Origin: a virus
IMG/VR virus record: IMGVR_UViG_3300037247_001970
Coordinates: 1-29,834 of that record
Strand: one strand, 5' to 3'
Length of the DNA stretch: 29,834 bases
The notes under the pieces are model-generated. The model was not told the origin of the DNA, did not search any database, and was given only the letters and a program-made list of their open reading frames with translations. The translations under genes were made by a program, and so were the position numbers. Numbering within the stretch: position 1 is the stretch's first letter; every line of letters starts with the position of its first letter. Below are positions 25,670 through 25,930 of this stretch, piece by piece.

Positions 25670-25930
25670 TACGGCGTGGCGTGTCCCGGATGGGTCAGGC
25701 TAGGCCCGGCTCGGTACGGCAGGTCTGGCATGGCATGGCGCGGTATAGTTCGGCTCGGCGCGGCGTGGCTAGGCTTGGCGCGGCAGGTCTGGTCCGGTCC
25801 GGCGAGGCGTGGCCGGGTAGGGATCGGTCTGGCTAGGCGGGGTTCGGCAGGTCGGGTCAGGTGAGGCGCGGTATGGCGTGGTCAGGCTTGGTGAGGCGAG
25901 GCTCGGCGTGGTCGGGTTCGGCAGGTCAGG
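25670..25930 (+). repeat. pentanucleotide YNNGG array B, 53 units in four modules
   Basis: The tract keeps a GG every 5 nt for 261 bases. Fifty-one of 53 units end in GG, and 51 of 53 begin with C or T, while the inner bases vary. Four times the period is broken by a 4-nt CAGG unit: the modules end at 25723, 25787, 25851 and 25925 and have lengths of 54, 64, 64 and 74 nt. One further unit then leads straight into the ATG at 25934. Every module, and array A, ends in CGGCAGGT. An ORF read through it is a shadow. Confidence 0.9.

Follow-up and report, generated by a model that had tools for sequence, protein, structure and literature searches.

The two arrays of degenerate pentanucleotides present in the window, that is, in the whole 29.8-kb stretch of viral DNA analysed here, are almost certainly guide-RNA (vrRNA) arrays of the VIPR type and comprise five guides in all. 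VIPR (Viral Interference Programmable Repeat), recently proposed to be related to CRISPR or to be its forerunner, has so far been described in a single preprint of April-June 2026 (PMC13142463, doi 10.64898/2026.04.26.720920). By every sequence criterion tested the window arrays are vrRNA arrays, and a complete VIPR locus is not contained in the fragment. What the window adds is the occurrence of two separate guide arrays with matching promoter-like elements in a fragment without Vipr. Furthermore, our analysis of related phages provides an independent check on VIPR itself: a blind search among neighbouring genes recovers the RAMP partner, and CAGG-punctuated arrays obey the one-nucleotide skip code.

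Structure of the arrays

The repeats and guides are located as follows (N stands for the variable positions of each YNNGG unit).

25670..25930, + strand: vrRNA-type array A, 53 YNNGG units in four CAGG-separated modules
25670..25723, + strand: guide M1, 10 units + CAGG; NN = AC GT GT CC TG CA TA CC TC AC
25724..25787, + strand: guide M2, 12 units + CAGG; NN = CT AT AT GC AT TC TC GC GT TA TT GC
25788..25851, + strand: guide M3, 12 units + CAGG; NN = CT CC CC GA GT CG AG TC CT TA GG TC
25852..25925, + strand: guide M4, 14 units + CAGG; NN = CG CA GA GC AT GT CA TT GA GA TC GT CG TC
8981..9049, + strand: vrRNA-type array B, 13 units + CAGG, a single guide between the terminase and portal genes; NN = GC TT AC AT CT AG TT TT TC TC CC AA GC

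Walked unit by unit from position 25670, array A is made up of 49 pentamers and four CAGG units. As stated in the original prediction, a GG recurs every 5 nt (51 of 53 units end in GG, the exceptions being CGTGT and TATAG) and the first base of the unit is a pyrimidine, again in 51 of 53 units (exceptions ATGGG and ATCGG). Breaks of the frame are confined to the 4-nt CAGG units, and the resulting modules of 54, 64, 64 and 74 nt all end in CGGCAGGT. That these lengths can be written as 10k+4 is a coincidence, because the CAGG-to-CAGG distances across related phages, nearly all of which are 44, 49, 54, 59, 64, 69 or 74 nt, are simply 4 mod 5. Both period and run length lie far above chance: compared with 2000 dinucleotide-preserving shuffles, array A contains 45 lag-5 GG pairs (shuffles: mean 12.4, maximum 25) and a longest unbroken run of 15 units (8 in shuffles). 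The array has no match in Rfam.

Array B had escaped the first inspection of the sequence. It ends in CGGCAGGT just as the modules of array A do, and its unbroken run of 13 units compares with 5 in shuffles. Both arrays lie on the + strand, as do nearly all genes of the window, and each is preceded by a promoter-like element.

25632..25661, + strand: promoter-like element of array A, TCGACA - 18 nt - TACATT
8943..8972, + strand: promoter-like element of array B, TCGACG - 18 nt - TACACT

The two elements conform to TCGACR-N18-TACAYT and have partly the same spacer, and in both cases 8 nt separate the -10-like hexamer from the first repeat unit. The pattern TCGACR-N7-TAGNNTANNGCTACAYT, which was drawn up from these same two upstream regions, occurs in the window at two sites only, both of them in front of the arrays, and in none of 100 shuffles. 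Given matching elements 8 nt before both arrays, transcription of A and B probably starts at about the first unit.

7336..8940, + strand: terminase large subunit gene (phrog_9, E 1.1e-21), the context gene upstream of array B
25934..26911, + strand: nucleotide-sugar epimerase/dehydratase gene, 325 aa (Polysacc_synt_2), first in a sugar operon

The ATG of the epimerase gene sits 3 nt downstream of array A. The surface-sugar operon that it opens (25934-29758) contains five genes, for the Polysacc_synt_2 protein, an RmlD-like protein, a glycosyltransferase, a formyltransferase and a PIG-L-like deacetylase. For the 503-aa gene that precedes array A, relatives were sought in IMG/VR and none were found. 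Elsewhere in the window (1830-2321), a 163-aa protein with a DUF3850/ASCH-like RNA-binding domain is encoded.

Identification as vrRNA arrays

According to the preprint, a vrRNA has 9-16 YNNGG repeats; GGY forms a fixed protein-binding frame, and NN is hypervariable. The NN dinucleotides specify a double-stranded DNA target that is read with one skipped base between dinucleotides. Vipr, a small RAMP protein, binds the vrRNA and represses transcription, and natural guides are aimed at rival phages, prophages and satellites (PMC13142463). Unit consensus, degeneracy and repeat number of the window arrays equal this definition, and it is on these grounds that we identify them as vrRNA arrays. With 10, 12, 12 and 14 units (M1-M4) and 13 units (B) every guide falls within the 9-16 range. 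The claim that no phage element of this kind had been described was therefore nearly true: one 2026 preprint describes such arrays, and it was the sole description found in the literature search. The proposal that selection acts on spacing rather than on a copied word holds for the spacing and the frame (GGY plus NN); the bases regarded as free hold different information, which in VIPR, as the preprint presents it, is the message (PMC13142463).

The sequence shared by all five guide ends is GGCAGGT only. After the last CAGG there follows a start codon in array A and a GGAG ribosome-binding site in array B. Neither array has an evident structured 3' tail of the kind seen in the SUSP1 clade, and architectures besides the one with such a tail are among those reported in the preprint (PMC13142463). 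RNA folds predicted with a tool that does not model quadruplexes gave z values of 1.75, -1.0, -2.8 and -0.2 relative to shuffles, i.e. no consistent fold.

Related arrays in other phages

A distant blastn search led to two annotated phages with similar arrays, Mycobacterium phage Donkeykong and Gordonia phage UmaThurman. A scan of IMG/VR for (YNNGG)12 returned at least 120 contigs with such arrays, their GC content ranging from 29 to 76%, and tabulation of the flanking genes, a check that had been suggested at the outset, yielded one dominant neighbour family. Of 435 nearest genes, 386 are co-directional with the GG strand. In many arrays the frame breaks after every 8-15 units, and for a given phage the size of the step is always the same (4, 7, 8, 9 or 11 nt).

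In mycobacteriophage cluster F the arrays of near relatives differ by entire CAGG modules. The Brocalys array, for example, lacks 113 nt (59 + 54) of the Donkeykong array, with near-identical flanks. When the Donkeykong array (L008:2946-3291) is set beside L130, L131, L132, L133 and L137, whole CAGG-bounded blocks are seen to be gained, lost or swapped between nearly identical flanks.

The partner protein

Clustering of all proteins encoded near arrays, performed blind to the expected content, gave one dominant family of about 203 aa (73 loci, median distance 10 nt from the array), encoded on the same strand as the array in 73 of 73 loci. This family corresponds to phrog_4652, annotated in PHROG as of unknown function, and in some loci it adjoins a family of about 160 aa (phrog_15946, likewise of unknown function). 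The clustering was carried out after the preprint had been found; since it drew on no sequence or model from PMC13142463, the association with a RAMP protein was recovered independently. The fold was examined on a protein of the relatives rather than of the window: an AlphaFold model of the Vipr from locus L100, built from an alignment of 61 family members, reached a pLDDT of 93.8, and in the PDB it best matched RAMP subunits of the Csm3/Cas7 type, from type III and type VII CRISPR complexes (E values in Foldseek down to 5e-6, Z up to 12.6). Arrays of the CAGG type with an adjoining vipr gene are found in L008, L009, L013, L033, L053, L060, L064, L079, L080 and L095 and also in L100, L101, L103 and L125. 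In the GGCAGG-break loci L080, L100, L101, L103 and L125 the array is flanked by Vipr and a vap-like gene.

A further family of about 168 aa lies next to arrays in 13 loci (L017, L021, L028, L030, L065, L071 and others), always co-oriented and at a median distance of 19 nt. Profile comparison did not recognise it as Vipr, and it may represent a second accessory protein or a divergent Vipr.

Targeting code and target searches

The skip code was examined by scanning six Gordonia phage genomes with the guides of UmaThurman and Pipp, the CAGG unit being dropped. For three of the eight CAGG-type Gordonia guides, rival Gordonia phages contain a site that deviates in 1-2 of 18-20 bases. UmaThurman guide 2 agrees in 17 of 18 bases with the integrase gene of Guacamole and its equivalent in Petra, CaptainKirk2 and Obliviate, UmaThurman guide 1 in 18 of 20 bases with Fenry gene 42, and Pipp guide 3 in 19 of 20 bases with gene 42 of Guacamole and its relatives. 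All three fit at a skip of one nucleotide only (4-6 mismatches at other skips), and an equally good fit was not reached by any of 300 order-shuffled guides. For the other five guides no significant match was obtained in any of the six genomes. On the annotated coordinates of Guacamole and Fenry, each of the three matches has its skipped base at the wobble position of the codon, and the skipped bases differ between rival phages (GCG/GCA, AGA/AGG, CCG/CCC). In the full set of guides no NN dinucleotide is as strongly depleted as TA (0.67 of expectation), which agrees with what would be expected if targets are codons. The UmaThurman and Pipp guides point at the integrase and at early lysogeny-region genes of rival phages. 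As UmaThurman and Pipp are named Gordonia laboratory phages, the system is testable with phages from culture collections. The predicted target sites lie at L138:32012-32038, L138:33519-33548 and L143:34055-34084, within the integrase gene and two small lysogeny-region genes.

Scans for targets of the window guides covered M2, M3, M4 and B in IMG/VR and M4 in GTDB. Exact 10-unit patterns of M4 and B had no match in IMG/VR. Eight-unit 5' seeds retrieved 10 (M4), 31 (M2), 9 (M3) and 19 (B) stretches from this database, with all mismatches in the unseeded units; extension of the seeds was no better than chance, the best stretches having 7 mismatches of 28 (M4), 4 of 24 (M2), 6 of 24 (M3) and 4 of 26 (B). 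In 84,980 GTDB genomes a 9-unit M4 scan found six stretches, each with at least 6 mismatches in the remaining 10 bases, and within the window itself no guide had a match with fewer than 7 mismatches. On the minus strand at position 571 of a 260-kb viral contig (L150), the first eight M4 dinucleotides match codons reading RHDAIVHFAAESHV, which resembles an rfbB-type sugar dehydratase. The later units do not fit, and the match is probably due to chance.

Proposed mode of action

By analogy, we infer that the window arrays work as the published vrRNAs do; RNA expression, Vipr binding and repression are reported in the preprint (PMC13142463), the vrRNAs being RNAs of about 100 nt. Each array would be transcribed from its own sigma70-like promoter, with a start at about the first repeat, and would give rise to one or more guide RNAs. 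CAGG, being one nucleotide short, breaks the 5-nt frame and would mark where one guide ends and the next begins; processing in this phage would take place at CAGG. Vipr RAMP subunits are expected to coat the RNA via the GGY triplets, one per 5-nt unit, leaving the NN of 9-16 units to pair with double-stranded DNA while one target base is skipped between dinucleotides. Once bound, the complex would silence a gene in a competing phage or prophage.

Absence of vipr from the fragment

Neither phrog_4652 nor the family HMM nor the C-terminal RAMP motif revealed a Vipr in the 29.8-kb window, and no vap-like gene was found within it either. This absence lowers the case for a complete VIPR locus, not that for a vrRNA array, and it concerns the fragment and not the whole phage. 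The IMG/VR record is a linear virus contig of 29.8 kb and an incomplete fragment, its terminase is nearest (about 25-28% identity) to terminases of phages mostly of 160-385 kb, and among 40 array-bearing records without a nearby Vipr phrog_4652 is present elsewhere in the record in 14. Taken together, this makes the missing part of the genome the simplest location. Most likely, the vipr gene resides in the unassembled part of the phage or is supplied in trans.

The arrays could also be orphan or decoy guides, i.e. vrRNAs without a Vipr of their own that borrow the Vipr of a co-resident prophage or host or titrate that of a rival. Such a situation would explain why vipr is lacking from 29.8 kb, satellites with their own vrRNAs are among the cases reported in the preprint (PMC13142463), and 26 of the 40 array records without a nearby Vipr are devoid of phrog_4652 elsewhere in the record as well. 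However, the fragmentary state of the record, the large-phage affiliation of its terminase and the 14 records with a distant Vipr speak against it, as does the fact that divergent Vipr types may escape the phrog_4652 match; we consider orphan or decoy guides possible, though unlikely. Slightly more doubtful still is a variant in which guides residing in operon leaders of a phage without its own Vipr act in trans with the Vipr of another element, or in which the array serves at the same time as regulatory leader for the surface-sugar operon downstream.

Interpretations without guide function

The original prediction had seen in the RNA a ladder for a multimeric binding protein resembling TRAP. 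In outline this stands, as each unit of the RNA would be bound by one subunit of a multimeric protein; the ring does not, because the protein encoded beside such arrays is a RAMP with Csm3/Cas7 fold. TRAP sites do resemble the arrays in that they combine a triplet with a 2-nt spacer over about 11 units. TRAP differs, however, in its triplet (NAG as opposed to GGY in the window) and in having one site per leader, a ring protein and a spacer free of information. A TRAP-like leader, with a ring of 11-15 subunits on the RNA as regulator of the sugar operon downstream, would account for the 5-nt spacing and for the position of array A, which ends 3 nt short of the ATG that starts a sugar-nucleotide gene. 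It would require about 11 (G/U)AG triplets spaced 4-6 nt apart, yet AG occurs in a minority of units and the fixed triplet is GGY. Moreover, array B lies away from any metabolic operon, similar arrays elsewhere precede or follow unrelated genes and flank the RAMP gene, and the NN code matches DNA targets in the Gordonia relatives. A leader of this kind is thus highly improbable.

The same holds for chained two-tier G-quadruplexes as a structural RNA or DNA element, the second reading put forward originally. Repeats of the type (GGN3)n are able in principle to form two-tier quadruplexes. Quadruplexes would have no need of a fixed 3-nt loop, though, and leave the strict pyrimidine after GG, the strict 5-nt frame and the module-wise turnover unexplained, and the predicted RNA fold (z values given above, from a tool that does not model quadruplexes) is not consistently better than that of shuffles. 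A decaying simple-sequence repeat without function, to which the tandem period might point, is hardly conceivable, given that GGY is kept while NN is near random (22 different unit triplets among 49 units) and that the same frame recurs in unrelated phages of 29-76% GC.

Relation to known systems

With published VIPR loci the window arrays share the YNNGG unit with fixed GGY and free NN, 9-16 units per guide and their location in a phage genome, and also the tandem arrangement of guides in non-coding sequence co-oriented with the neighbouring genes. They differ from these loci in the lack of a vipr or vap gene in the fragment and of an obvious structured tail, in the head-to-tail joining of guides by the 4-nt CAGG and in having two arrays, which are separated by about 17 kb and each preceded by a promoter-like element of its own. 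Features in common with CRISPR and Class 1 RAMP complexes are tandem guides, a RAMP protein and periodic non-paired positions in the guide. Unlike CRISPR, arrays of the VIPR type have neither fixed repeats nor contiguous spacers, and specificity is spread over dinucleotides; as for identical repeats of the CRISPR type, none longer than CGGCAGGT joins the modules in the window.

The arrays of UmaThurman (L009) and Donkeykong (L008) have GGCAGG breaks and module sizes as in the window, and differ in that a phrog_4652 Vipr gene touches the array there, whereas none does so in the window. Constant module steps of 9, 8, 11 or 7 nt instead of 4 are seen in L022, L063, L085, L111, L112 and L031, and probably represent other types of guide junction.
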